Shown: positions 11,739 through 41,192 of the stretch, in pieces | Layout: each line of letters starts with the position of its first letter | How positions within the stretch are numbered: the first letter of the stretch is position 1 | From: Leifsonia poae | GTDB lineage: Bacteria > Actinomycetota > Actinomycetes > Actinomycetales > Microbacteriaceae | Assembly (NCBI RefSeq): GCF_020009625.1 | Contig: NZ_JAIHLP010000002.1 | Span: 3,906,001-3,970,000, forward strand | DNA: 64,000 bases | Direction: 5' to 3' | Position numbers and translations under genes: made by a program | The notes under the pieces: model-generated | The model's input: the letters and a program-made list of their open reading frames with translations, nothing else | Databases searched by the model: none | Told to the model about the DNA's origin: nothing

Positions 11739-12422
11739 GTGGACACCCCGAATCGCCAGCGCAGTTTCGTCTCGCGCGGACGCAGGACCGAAGCCCAGCA
11801 GCGCGCCCTCGAGGAGCTGTGGCCCGACTACGGCATCGACTTCGTGGAGGAGCGGATCGACCTCGACCGGGCCTTCGGCCGTGTCGCGCCCCGCATCGTC
11901 GAGATCGGCTTCGGCAACGGCGAGAATCTGCTGACCCTCGCTGCGCAGCGTCCGGAGACCGATTTCCTGGGAGTCGAGGTGCACGGTTCCGGGGTCGGGC
12001 GGCTGCTGAACGAGCTGAGCGTGCGGGAGATCGGCAATGTGCGCGTCGTGCGGCACGACGCCGTCGAGGTGTTGGAACGGATGCTGCCCGAGCACAGCCT
12101 CGACGAGGTCCTCATCTTCTTCCCGGATCCGTGGCCGAAGAACCGCCACCGCCGACGTCGACTCGTTCAGCCGGAGTTCGCCCTGCTTCTCGCGCGCTCG
12201 CTGAAACCGACCGGCACGCTCCGACTCGCCACCGACTGGGCGGACTACGCCGAGCACATGATCGCGGTGCTCGACGCCTGTCCCGAGCTCGTGAACAGCG
12301 CCGGCGCCGGTGGCTTCGTGCCGCGCCCGGACGATCGCGCGCTCACCCGATTCGAACAGCGCGGCGAACGCCTGGGGCACGCGATCGTCGACCTCGAGTA
12401 CCGTACGGTCACGCATCCGTAG
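11739..12422 (+). CDS. trmB: tRNA (guanine-N7)-methyltransferase
   Basis: 227 residues from the GTG at 11739. It makes m7G46 in tRNA using S-adenosylmethionine. Motifs include VEIGFGNGENLLTLA (SAM-binding loop), FLGVEVHGSGVGRLL, and the TrmB signature FFPDPWPKNRHRRRRLVQ; the last part contains ATDWADYAEHM. An in-frame ATG at 11715 would add 8 residues, but it sits directly against the previous gene's hairpin, and a -10-like GAGAAT is correctly placed for 11739. Its stop codon TAG at 12420 forms the first three bases of the -10 of the next gene. Confidence 0.93.
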   Translation: MDTPNRQRSFVSRGRRTEAQQRALEELWPDYGIDFVEERIDLDRAFGRVAPRIVEIGFGNGENLLTLAAQRPETDFLGVEVHGSGVGRLLNELSVREIGNVRVVRHDAVEVLERMLPEHSLDEVLIFFPDPWPKNRHRRRRLVQPEFALLLARSLKPTGTLRLATDWADYAEHMIAVLDACPELVNSAGAGGFVPRPDDRALTRFEQRGERLGHAIVDLEYRTVTHP

Positions 12423-12431: not shown

Positions 12432-13814
12432 ATGACCCTGGCTCAGACCGTCGACGCTCTACGCCGCTCCTTCGATGCGGGCACCACGAAACCGCTCGCG
12501 TGGCGCCTCGCCCAGCTGGCGGCACTGCGCCGGATGCTCACCGAACGGTCGGCGGAGCTCGAGGACGCGCTGCTGGCCGACCTCGCCAAGAACCCCACCG
12601 AGTCGCAGGTGGCCGAGCTCGGGTTCGTGGTCAGTGAGATCGACCACATCACGCGTCGGCTGCGTCGCTGGCTGAAACCCCGCCGCGTCACCGTGCCCGG
12701 TGCGATCCTTCCCGCCCGTGCCAGCATCGTGCGCGAACCGCTCGGGGTCGTTCTGGTGATCGCGCCGTGGAACTATCCCGTTCAGCTTCTCCTGGCGCCG
12801 GTGGTCGGCGCTCTGGCGGCCGGGAACGCGGTCCTGCTGAAACCGAGCGAGCTCGCGCCGGCGACCTCGGCCGCGCTGGCCCGGCTCATCCCCGAATACC
12901 TCGACACCCGCGCCGTTGCGGTCGTCGAGGGCGGGGTGGAACAGACCACCGAGCTGCTGGAGCAGCGATTCGACCACATCTTCTATACGGGCAATGCGCG
13001 GGTCGGCCGCATCGTCGCCGCTGCGGCCGTGCCGAACCTCACCCCGATCACCCTCGAGCTCGGGGGCAAGTCGCCGGTCTATGTGGACGACACGGTCGAT
13101 CCGGAGGCTGCGGCGCTGCGCATCGCCTGGGGCAAGTTCATGAATGCCGGGCAGACCTGCGTGGCTCCCGACTACATCCTCGCCACCCAGGCCGTGGCCG
13201 CGCGTCTCGCGCCGGCTCTGGCCGCCGCGGTGCGCGAGCTGTACGGCGACGACCCCGCCACGAGTCCCGACTACGGCCGAATCGTCAACGACCGTCAATT
13301 CGACCGGCTCACCGGCCTGCTGGATGCGGGCACGACGATCATCGGGGGCGTCTCCGACCCGGTGACCCGCTACCTCGCGCCGACGGTGCTCACCGACGTC
13401 CCCCGCGACGCGGCCGTGATGGGCGAGGAGATCTTCGGTCCGGTCCTGCCGATCGTTCCCGTCTCCGGGCTCGACGAGGCCATCGGGATCATCGCCGGCG
13501 GCGACAAGCCGCTTGCGCTCTACGTGTTCAGCTCGAGTCGTCGTGTGCGTCGGCGCATCCTCACCGAGACGAGTTCCGGTGCGGTCGGATTCGGCGTGCC
13601 CGCGGCGCATCTCGCCGTCGCCGGCCTGCCGTTCGGGGGCGTGGGCGAGAGCGGGATGGGCGCATACCACGGCGAGAACTCGGTGCGGACGTTCAGTCAC
13701 GAGAAGGCCGTGCTGACCAAATCGCTGAAGCCGGACACCATGAGGCTCATCTACCCGCCGTACACCGAGGCCAAGGACAGATTCGTGCGCGGGCTCCTCC
13801 GCAAGCTGAGCTGA
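12432..13814 (+). CDS. Aldehyde dehydrogenase, class 3 / fatty-aldehyde type
   Basis: 460 residues, a normal length for the short class 3 group that lacks the N-terminal extension. Catalytic Cys243 is in GQTCVAPDY and general base Glu209 is in LELGGKSP. The [16 protein letters not shown] motif (109-124) and FGPVLPIVP are typical. It oxidises aldehydes to acids with NAD(P)+. The C-terminal [10 protein letters not shown]...[10 protein letters not shown] resembles enzymes acting on long-chain or aromatic aldehydes, but the substrate is not fixed. It follows trmB by 9 bp yet has its own predicted leaderless promoter. Confidence 0.92.
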
Positions 13815-15570: not shown

Positions 15571-16446
15571 TCAGGTGACCCGGCAGTACGTGGTGAGGTA
15601 GCCGATCCCGCCGATGGAGACGGTGACGGTCGACCGGTCGCGCAGGAAGACCGGCGGCGTGCGCGAGTATCCGGCGCCGCCCGGGCTTCCGGTCGAGATG
15701 AGGGTGCCGGGCTGAACTGTGGCCGACCGGGAGAGGAAGGACACGATCTCGGCGACGGAGCGCACCATGTCGGCGGTGGAGGAGTCTTGCAGGATGGCGC
15801 CATCGACGTTGGTGGTCAGCCAGAGGTCCTGCGGGTCGCTGATCTCTTCGGCGGTCACGACGACCGGTCCGTTGGGGGTGAAGCCGTCGAAGGATTTGCA
15901 CCGCGACCATTGCGCCTCGGAGAACTGCAGATCGCGAGCGGTGATGTCGTTGACCACCGTGTAGCCCCACACATAGTCGAGGGCGTCCCGCACCGAGACG
16001 TCGCGCGCCGGCTTGCCGATGATCACACCGAGCTCGGCCTCGTAGTCGACCTGGGTGGTGAGGTTCTCAGGCCAGGTGGTGGTGCCCTCGTGGCCCGCCA
16101 GCGAGTTGGGCCACAGGGAGAAGACGGTCGCCGCCTTCTCGGTGCGCAGCTTGAGCTCGGAGGCGTGCGCGGCATAGTTGGCGCCGATGGCGATCACCTG
16201 CGGCGGGCGCAGGACGGCCGAGGCGTGCCGAAGCTCGCGGATCGGCGTGAGCGACGTGTGCTGCGCGATCGCGTTGTCGACGACGGCCTTCACATGCGCG
16301 AGCGCGGCATCGCCCTGCTCGATGAGATCCTGGAGGTCACGCGGAGCCGGATCCATCACCTCGTCGAGGAAGAGAGCGCCGTCTCCGATGACGGCGGCCA
16401 GTCGCGGCTGTGGATCTGTGGTGGAACTGAGGTGCGAGAATCTCAC
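15571..16446 (-). CDS. Fumarylacetoacetate hydrolase (FAH) family protein
   Basis: 291 residues, GTG start. The FAH-fold C-terminal domain (about 85-290) has VIAIGANYAAHASE, the metal-binding DYEAELGVIIGKPAR, and GYTVVNDITARDLQ. Related enzymes hydrolyse or decarboxylate acylpyruvates, ureidoglycolate or catechol-pathway intermediates; the substrate here is unknown. It is divergent from an alpha/beta hydrolase with a 70-bp gap, and both genes have predicted leaderless promoters. Confidence 0.9.
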   Translation of the reverse strand: MRFSHLSSTTDPQPRLAAVIGDGALFLDEVMDPAPRDLQDLIEQGDAALAHVKAVVDNAIAQHTSLTPIRELRHASAVLRPPQVIAIGANYAAHASELKLRTEKAATVFSLWPNSLAGHEGTTTWPENLTTQVDYEAELGVIIGKPARDVSVRDALDYVWGYTVVNDITARDLQFSEAQWSRCKSFDGFTPNGPVVVTAEEISDPQDLWLTTNVDGAILQDSSTADMVRSVAEIVSFLSRSATVQPGTLISTGSPGGAGYSRTPPVFLRDRSTVTVSIGGIGYLTTYCRVT

Positions 16447-39102: not shown

Positions 39103-40092
39103 TCAGGCGTGCAGGGCAGCGTTCAGCTCGATGCCGCCCGAACGCGGCAGCACCTCGACAGCGCCCGTGAGTGAGTTGCGGCGGAACAGCAGGCCGGGAA
39201 CGCCGGAGAGTTCCACGGCTTTCACCGTCTGCGGGCGACCATCGGCCGTGGGGGTTCCGCCGACCACGACGACCTTGGTGCCCGCTGTCACGTAGAGCCC
39301 GGCCTCGACGACAGAGTCGTCGCCGATCGAGATGCCGATGCCGGAGTTCGCGCCGAGCAGGGCCCGCTCGCCGATGGCGACGCGCTGGGTGCCCCCGCCC
39401 GAGAGCGTACCCATGATGGAGGCGCCGCCGCCGATGTCGGAGCCGTCGCCGACGACGACGCCCTGCGAGACGCGTCCCTCGATCATCGACGTGCCGAGAG
39501 TGCCGGCATTGAAGTTGACGAAGCCTTCGTGCATCACCGTGGTGCCGGGCGAGAGGTGGGCGCCCAGACGCACGCGCGAGGCATCGGCGATGCGCACTCG
39601 GTCGGGCGTGACGTAGTCGAGCAGGCGCGGGAACTTGTCGATGCCGGTGACGTGGATGCCGGCACGCTGCAGCTGCGGGCGCAACCGGTCGAAGTCGGCC
39701 GGATGCACCGGTCCTGCATTGGTCCAGGTGACGATCGGCAGGTGCCCGAAGATGCCGTCGAGGTTGACGGTGTTCGGCGCGACGAGCAGGTGGGAGAGCA
39801 GGTGGAGACGCAGGTAGGCGTCCGGGGTGGATGCGGGAGCGGCGTCCAGGTCGATGTCGACGGTCACGACGTCGATGCGCACATTGCGGCGCGGATCGTC
39901 GCCGGCGAGCGCCTCGAACTCCGCGGGGGCGATCCAACGGTCGCGGCCGGCGGGCAGCCCGCCGAGCTTCGGCTCCGGGAACCAGGTGTCGAGCACGGTG
40001 CCGTCGCCGGCGACGGTCGCGAGTCCGTAGCCCCAGGCCTGGCGGAGGGAGGGGGCGGGCGCGGCGGATTCGGAGGAAACGTCGGAGGGCAT
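39103..40092 (-). CDS. dapD: Tetrahydrodipicolinate N-succinyltransferase
   Basis: 329 residues, the long actinobacterial DapD form. The left-handed beta-helix has hexapeptide-like repeats from about 150: [20 protein letters not shown], then [24 protein letters not shown]. It succinylates tetrahydrodipicolinate in the lysine/meso-diaminopimelate pathway for peptidoglycan. It is divergent from dapE, which removes the same succinyl group two steps later. The ATG at 40092 is the predicted first transcribed base. Confidence 0.95.
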
Positions 40093-40097
40093 GCCTC

Positions 40098-40104
40098 TAG
40101 ATTA
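40098..40104. promoter_or_regulatory. Overlapping bidirectional leaderless -10 elements of dapD and dapE
   Basis: On the plus strand TAGATT (40098-40103) lies 6 bases before the dapE GTG (40110). On the minus strand TAATCT (40104-40099) lies 6 bases before the dapD ATG (40092). The two hexamers share five base pairs, so one 17-bp gap holds both promoters. Confidence 0.7.
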
Positions 40105-40109
40105 GTAGT

Positions 40110-41192
40110 GTGCCTCTCGACCTCAGTGCCTCCTCGATCGACCTCACCCGCCAGATCTGCGACATCGAGTCGGTGTCCGGAGATGAGGGGGGCTTGGCCG
40201 ACGCCATCGAGGCCGCGCTCGTCGACTGCGACCATCTCGAGATCGTGCGCGACGGCGACACGGTCGTCGCCCGCACCGACCTCGGCCGGGATCGTCGGGT
40301 CGTGATCGCGGGCCACATCGACACCGTGCCGGTCAACGGCAATCTGCCGACGCGATTCGAGACCGAAGACGGCGTCGACTACCTGTGGGGTCGCGGCACC
40401 GTCGACATGAAGGCGGGAACGGCGGTTCAGCTCAAACTGGCCGCCGAGCTCACCGATCCGACGGTCGACATCACGTGGATGTGGTACGACCATGAGGAGG
40501 TCTCGGCCGACCTGAACGGTCTCGGCCGGCTCGCCCGCAACCGTCCCGACCTGTTCGTCGGCGACTTCGCCATCCTCGGCGAACCGAGCAACGGTGTGGT
40601 CGAGGGCGGATGCAACGGCAACCTCCGGGTCGAGGTCCGTACCTTCGGGCGCCGTGCGCATTCGGCACGCGGCTGGGTGGGCGAGAACGCCATTCACAAA
40701 GCCGCGCCCATCCTCGAGATCCTGGCGGCGTATACGGCGCGCGAGGTGGAGGTCGACGGTCTGGTCTATCGCGAGGGACTCAATGCGGTCGGCATCTCCG
40801 GGGGAGTCGCCGGGAACATCATCCCCGACGAGTGCATGGTGCACATCAACTACCGATTCGCGCCCAGCAGAAGCGCCGAGGAAGCCATCGAGCACATGCG
40901 CGAGCTGTTCGGCGAGTACGAGATCGCCGTCGTCGACCGCGCGGACGGGGCGCGGCCGGGCCTCGACGCCCCGCTCGCGCAGGAGTTCCTCGCGGCTGTC
41001 GGCGGTGAGGCGAAACCCAAGTACGGCTGGACCGACGTCGCGCGTTTTTCGGCGCTCGGCATCCCGGCGGTCAACTACGGCCCGGGCGATCCGCTGAAGG
41101 CGCACGCCGACGACGAACGGGTGCCTGTCGCCCAGATCACCGCCGTCGAAGCGGGTCTGCGTGCCTGGCTCTCCGGTGTCGGCCGGGGCTGA
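40110..41192 (+). CDS. dapE: Succinyl-diaminopimelate desuccinylase
   Basis: 360 residues, M20 metallopeptidase family. Metal ligands are seen in VIAGHIDTVPVN (His, Asp) and YLWGRGTVDMKAGTA (Asp), with the Glu pair in YDHEEVS and the late His in DPLKAHADDERV. It hydrolyses N-succinyl-LL-diaminopimelate to LL-diaminopimelate. The GTG at 40110 fits the bidirectional promoter. A membrane mannosyltransferase gene follows 25 bp on. Confidence 0.95.
   Translation: MPLDLSASSIDLTRQICDIESVSGDEGGLADAIEAALVDCDHLEIVRDGDTVVARTDLGRDRRVVIAGHIDTVPVNGNLPTRFETEDGVDYLWGRGTVDMKAGTAVQLKLAAELTDPTVDITWMWYDHEEVSADLNGLGRLARNRPDLFVGDFAILGEPSNGVVEGGCNGNLRVEVRTFGRRAHSARGWVGENAIHKAAPILEILAAYTAREVEVDGLVYREGLNAVGISGGVAGNIIPDECMVHINYRFAPSRSAEEAIEHMRELFGEYEIAVVDRADGARPGLDAPLAQEFLAAVGGEAKPKYGWTDVARFSALGIPAVNYGPGDPLKAHADDERVPVAQITAVEAGLRAWLSGVGRG

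Follow-up and report, generated by a model that had tools for sequence, protein, structure and literature searches.

Bidirectional promoters in which a single symmetric -10 element serves starts on opposite strands, one on either side of it, were described in E. coli by Warman, Grainger and colleagues (Warman et al. 2026, PMC12825309). The commonest distance between the two starts in that set is 18 bp, and distances of 23 and 10 bp are also common. All five tested promoters were reported to have basal activity too low for competition; losing one direction did not substantially raise the other, and competition was seen with strong activation. The main text of that paper nowhere uses the word 'leaderless'. 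For Actinobacteria, leaderless genes are described as having a TANNNT some 12 bp ahead of the start codon (PMC3160421, PMC3898074). Two divergent gene pairs of M. tuberculosis come close to the layout reported here. Rv1129c/Rv1130 (prpD and its regulator) is divergent with both mRNAs leaderless, there by experiment, and it is a pair of a regulator and its target, unlike dapD/dapE (PMC3898074). The lysG/lysE pair also belongs to lysine metabolism and has overlapping -10/-35 motifs and a leaderless lysE start; it differs by a 108-bp gap, by regulator control and by the leaderless start being reported for lysE only (PMC5648196). In the open-licence literature, mostly titles and abstracts, we found no description of an actinobacterial divergent leaderless pair that shares one -10.

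The locus studied here lies in a stretch of 64,000 nucleotides of the Leifsonia poae genome, referred to below as the window. In a profile search, dapD was recognised as TIGR03535 (DapD_actino, 497 bits against a cut-off of 441.5) and dapE as TIGR01900 (dapE-gram_pos, 509 bits against a cut-off of 304.2). Judged by dapD, the closest named relative is Leifsonia aquatica (90%). The choice of the dapD start codon is backed by the conserved spacing across relatives. The dapE GTG keeps a constant distance to TAGRTTA across genomes, though the N-terminus behind it differs in length. The features of the region are listed in the table.

Features of the dapD-dapE junction, in window coordinates
Feature	Position	Strand	Basis or remark
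dapD, tetrahydrodipicolinate N-succinyltransferase, 329 aa	39103..40092	-	ORF and TIGR03535; ATG start at 40092
dapE, succinyl-diaminopimelate desuccinylase, 360 aa	40110..41192	+	ORF and TIGR01900; GTG start at 40110
Entire intergenic gap GCCTCTAGATTAGTAGT, 17 bp	40093..40109	.	between CAT 40090-40092 and GTG 40110
-10 hexamer of dapE, TAGATT	40098..40103	+	TANNNT, 6 nt (40104-40109) to GTG
-10 hexamer of dapD, TAATCT	40099..40104	-	TANNNT, 6 nt (40093-40098) to ATG
Common symmetric element TAGATTA (TANNNTA)	40098..40104	.	hexamers overlap at 40099-40103, 5 bp
Predicted dapE transcription start, first base of GTG	40110	+	inferred from TANNNT spacing
Predicted dapD transcription start, first base of ATG	40092	-	inferred from TANNNT spacing
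GTAG	40105..40108	.	with A40104 forms AGTAG, invariant in 27 genus loci with a 17-bp gap beyond the needs of either hexamer

The original prediction had given a 17-bp gap, two hexamers sharing five base pairs and 6 nt from each to its start codon, and this anatomy is correct to the base. TANNNT can be read on both strands of TAGATTA, as expected of a -10 usable in both orientations. A40099 and T40103 are used by both hexamers, T40098 by that of dapE only and A40104 by that of dapD only, so the shared form makes do with four fixed A/T bases in place of six. Like the leaderless genes of Actinobacteria (PMC3160421, PMC3898074), both dapD and dapE have TANNNT 6 nt before ATG or GTG. By eye, no Shine-Dalgarno sequence stands at the right distance in the gap of the window or in the gaps of the listed relatives; a GAGG near the dapD ATG is only 1-2 nt away and is not conserved. 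Nothing conserved that resembles a -35 element was seen by eye in the coding sequences flanking the gap in the window and in a few relatives, in line with M. tuberculosis, where a -35 motif was not detected (PMC3898074). Both -10s amount to TANNNT and nothing more. The predicted starts are 18 bp apart, which is the commonest distance in the E. coli set, and the second overlap class encountered below, ANNNTANNNT, corresponds to their 23 bp (PMC12825309). The common -10 with starts on opposite strands on either side is likewise shared with the E. coli promoters. In contrast to them, start codons stand at both predicted starts here, the promoter would fill the whole gap and the mRNAs would be leaderless; in contrast to the actinobacterial leaderless genes described (PMC3160421, PMC3898074), dapD and dapE share one hexamer.

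We therefore propose, with high confidence, that the gap is one bidirectional promoter yielding two leaderless mRNAs. RNA polymerase, most likely with the housekeeping sigma factor, would bind TAGATTA in either orientation and would start each time at the first base of the adjoining start codon, the two starts being 18 bp apart. On this reading, both directions are probably used, and at ordinary activity they would be independent of each other. One symmetric -10 for two leaderless-type genes of one pathway, as originally proposed, is supported by the sequence.

The same leaderless signature is present elsewhere in the window. TANNNT precedes an ATG or GTG of a coding frame by 6 nt in 8 cases and by 7 nt in 4, with no other spacing below 14. 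A second divergent pair was observed at 16446 (minus) and 16517 (plus), with frames of 291 and 306 aa separated by a 70-bp gap, each having TANNNT 6 nt before a GTG. A further TANNNTA (TACCGTA, 12399-12405) lies about 27 bp before a leaderless-type start at 12432, which has its own TAGGAT.

Conservation of the element and its spacings in relatives had been named beforehand as one of two observations on which the proposal could fail, and the proposal survived it. Every one of the 28 genus genomes carries TANNNT 5-8 nt ahead of the start of either gene, with the two hexamers overlapping in the form TANNNTA. The gap is exactly 17 bp in 27 of them and 18 bp in one. In the 27 loci with the 17-bp gap, 12 of 17 gap positions are invariant, compared with 3 of 96 fourfold-degenerate dapE sites. 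The fixed bases of the dapE and dapD hexamers are invariant in all 27, as are C40095 and C40097. Of the columns of TAGRTTAGTAG only one varies, between A and G, and it is a free base of the hexamer. A second plus-strand TANNNT, TAGTGT, is found at 40106-40111; the TAGNGT spanning the dapE start codon accompanies AGTAG as an extra plus-strand TANNNT, whose start would fall inside dapE. Two loci from other genera (L126, L128) have AGTGG in place of AGTAG.

The bare motif is not improbable by chance; its place and conservation are. The pattern CAYN5TANNNTAN5RTG matches the 4.1-Mb genome once, namely here, and its reversed control pattern also matches once; over 59 genomes the counts are 59 and 60. 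These equal frequencies are what a random TANNNTA between genes whose leaders lie elsewhere would predict. We give that explanation hardly any weight, because both the sequence and the two spacings are conserved, the background is low, and the spacing and two-sided controls presented below speak against it. The background was taken as TANNNT 5-8 nt before internal in-frame ATG or GTG codons of the same genes, found in 9 of 4774 cases with loci present in two sets counted twice. It also bounds the error of the surveys, in which start codons were picked by the TANNNT rule and the counts are therefore partly circular.

We also considered that only dapE uses the element, with dapD read from a promoter inside dapE and carrying a leader, so that the minus-strand TAATCT would be a by-product of symmetry. 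The -10s are inherently near-symmetric (PMC12825309), and a plus-strand TAGATT needs no more than an A after it to yield a minus-strand TANNNT. However, A40104 is needed by no hexamer but that of dapD and yet varies in none of the 27 genus loci, and no other minus-strand TANNNT occurs between 39800 and 40400. Inspection by eye shows no conserved Shine-Dalgarno sequence in the 6 nt preceding the dapD ATG. Moreover, dapD retains a TANNNT 5-8 nt from its start also at junctions with separate promoters; in the surveys below, each gene has one in 70 of 72 and 46 of 49 pairs. We regard use by dapE alone as improbable, and keep to the bidirectional promoter.

The dapD-dapE junction was then followed across the family and the class; profile-search E-values in the pair survey were computed at a fixed database size. 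A family-wide scan with CAYN4CTAGNTTAGN4RTG matched in 40 of 398 genomes. Loci were fetched for 30 of these matches and left unfetched for 10; dapD and dapE flank 24 of the 30, from 6 genera, and the remaining 6 lie elsewhere. Among 80 named contigs, dapD and dapE are divergent and adjacent in 72, with TANNNT on both genes in 70. A common TANNNTA is present in 8 of them (Leifsonia aquatica, Humibacter, five Cryobacterium and Leucobacter weissii), 2 share ANNNTANNNT, and the other 60 have separate hexamers, with gaps up to 218 bp. The 8 contigs giving no pair comprise five with no dapE match (L013, L053, L056, L074, L082), two with dapE more than 1 kb away (L015, L021) and one, L066 from Microbacterium halophytorum, with dapE on the strand of dapD, as against 72 contigs with a divergent pair. 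One contig titled Stenotrophomonas maltophilia (L054) holds Microbacteriaceae-type dapD and dapE with 69% and 73% identity to the proteins of the window, and its assembly is probably mislabelled or contaminated. At least one genome belongs to both the genus set and the named set (L004 and G001, on contigs of equal length, are apparently one genome).

A sample of the whole class comprised 148 genomes, 124 of them with a DapD-family match, and 110 dapD loci were read. The 14 genomes whose locus was not read include 8 strong matches left unfetched (G465, G478, G536, G447, G471, G548, G419, G506). A divergent dapE was found beside dapD at 49 of the 110 loci, with TANNNT on both genes in 46. The other 61 loci consist of 58 with dapD and no dapE match, two with neither (L285, L295) and one with dapE only (L305), where the upstream DNA searched for dapE was 1500 bp for L201-L230 and about 700 bp or less for the other class loci. 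In 16 of the 46 pairs, from 8 other families, TANNNTA is common to both genes, with gaps of 17, 18 or 20 bp. In five more the common element is ANNNTANNNT (gaps of 22-26 bp), and the hexamers of the remaining 25 are separate. Across the named and class sets, five pairs failed the two-promoter rule (L045, L069, L288, L292, L301).

These families bear on a further explanation, in which TAGRTTAGTAG would be first an operator, bound by a regulator of lysine/DAP synthesis, and a promoter only in second place. The AGTAG, C40095 and C40097, invariant beyond both hexamers in the 27 genus loci, would fit a protein-binding site, and CTAGATTAG is an imperfect inverted repeat. The other families, however, retain the architecture and not the sequence (TACGGTA, TACCGTA), which fits promoter geometry and not one operator. 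In addition, neither dapD nor dapE codes for a regulator; both are biosynthetic enzymes, and the pair does not have the form of a regulator-target divergon of the LysR type. An operator in the first place is thus about as doubtful as use by dapE alone, and a promoter remains the preferred function of the element. The cores seen at TANNNTA-sharing pairs of other families include TACGGTA, TACCGTA and TACTGTA.

Taking the three sets together, 144 pairs were compared (28, 70 and 46, with at least one genome in two sets), and none is closer than 17 bp. The junction in the window, made of a start codon, 6 nt, overlapping hexamers, 6 nt and a start codon, is therefore minimal with respect to all pairs seen. 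Overlapping hexamers occur among the 144 pairs only at offset 6 (TANNNTA) or offset 1 (ANNNTANNNT); by our own reckoning, these are the two overlaps where fixed bases coincide and four A/T bases do for six. Other possible overlaps, such as TAANNTTA with a gap of 16, were found in none of the 144. With 6-nt spacings, offsets 6 and 1 lead to start distances of 18 and 23 bp.

The shared state has probably changed repeatedly. On a tree of 76 DapD and DapE rows, at least 9 changes are needed for TANNNTA (22 of 72 rows) and at least 4 for ANNNTANNNT (7 of 72), gains and losses being counted without separation on a tree built by a quick method, with 15 of its 73 inner branches drawn open. Leucobacter weissii (L042, TACAGTA) stands beside L. 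chromiireducens (L024, separate hexamers, 62 bp), which is most simply a fresh gain. The CTAGRTTAG that Leifsonia, Cryobacterium and Humibacter have in common points to a shared state of greater age, lost in neighbours.

To see the same layout outside dapD/dapE, sites matching the pattern were collected from the class sample. In this sample, 11 of 29 TANNNTA sites, own locus L112 excluded, lie between two divergent coding frames, compared with 2 of 30 for the ATNNNAT control (Fisher p = 0.005), which includes L199 (two-sided) and L200 (not two-sided). The sampled loci are those first in listing order rather than chosen at random, and frames counted as 'coding' on length (at least 80 codons) and G+C order alone. 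The dapD/dapE pair makes up 4 of the 11 two-sided sites. The others include a GntG-type aldolase with a protein matching sigma-70 region 4, a COX15/CtaA protein with an endoglycoceramidase-like protein, and two pairs of AI-2E-type transporters. In the latter (L145, L146), two possibly paralogous genes diverge from a 17-bp gap with TACGGTA or TACCGTA. Of ANNNTANNNT sites with 6-nt spacings, 20 of 30 lie between divergent coding frames, compared with 0 of 30 for the TNNNATNNNA control, drawn from 59 genomes and not from 148 (p 1e-8). Three genomes of a single other genus in the family (L113, L114, L115) also have the element with the same spacings, as CTAGATTAG, between a gene for an Nramp-family transporter and one for a DHA2-family efflux protein; the pair was named from L113, to which the other two are 81-95% identical.

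Spacing was controlled by shifting TANNNTA 3 nt outward on both sides, which preserves all reading phases. This gave 4 matches, compared with 59 at the right spacing in the same 59 genomes, and none of the 4 was two-sided. Raw TANNNTA matches do not exceed the reversed pattern in these genomes, and the reversed pattern of the shifted form gave 75 matches. Since the reversed patterns stay level while the forward one drops from 59 to 4, we read this as a true excess at the right spacing, which sits on a low background for TA-bearing codons. Matches of the ATNNNAT control exceed those of TANNNTA (108 vs 83 of 148 genomes). Codon use differs between the patterns, and the weight is therefore placed on the phase-matched spacing control and the two-sided counts. 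Two genomes of family f16 and genus g102 (G446, G427) have 81 and 26 matches to CAYN5ATNNNATN5RTG, compared with at most 15 in the other tabulated genomes, which suggests a repeated element.

In view of these pairs, rarity of the dapD-dapE arrangement is not supported. The layout recurs at dapD/dapE outside the family and between genes other than these two, and M. tuberculosis already offers a mapped divergent pair whose mRNAs are both leaderless, Rv1129c/Rv1130 (PMC3898074). An element unique to dapD/dapE is ruled out by the other pairs with the same layout. It was also suggested that polymerase, occupying one direction at a time, would couple the levels of the two enzymes. The reported absence of competition at basal activity in the five E. 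coli bidirectional promoters argues against this, if they are a guide to Actinomycetes (PMC12825309), and coupling by polymerase exclusion is retained here as something that may occur under strong activation.

The junction looks like a known type of bidirectional promoter in a dual-leaderless variant, and this variant appears to be common in the class. More broadly, it seems likely to us, though less so than the reading of the dapD-dapE gap itself, that gene junctions with dual-leaderless bidirectional promoters form a class that is widespread in Actinomycetes and geometrically quantised. Their start codons would be 17-20 bp (TANNNTA) or 22-26 bp (ANNNTANNNT) apart, as set by the polymerase footprint, one and the same gene pair would have switched state repeatedly, and the motif together with the distance between the start codons would predict the promoter and both starts. 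Such an architecture combines the symmetric -10 promoter with the leaderless gene, both known ideas, in a form that can be read from the sequence alone: TANNNTA or ANNNTANNNT between opposite start codons at a distance of 17 or 22 bp predicts both starts to the base. If the sampled rates hold, which is an extrapolation, there would be many natural promoters with a whole regulatory region of 17-22 bp. They would offer a test bed for direction choice by polymerase and an aid in fixing start codons in high-GC genomes.

For dapD and dapE themselves, the absence of a leader on both mRNAs would rule out control by riboswitch, attenuation or a Shine-Dalgarno sequence, and would leave the coding sequences and the element as the only places for a regulator to bind. 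For lysine/DAP synthesis in these organisms, this would mean that dapD and dapE are under no leader-RNA control.
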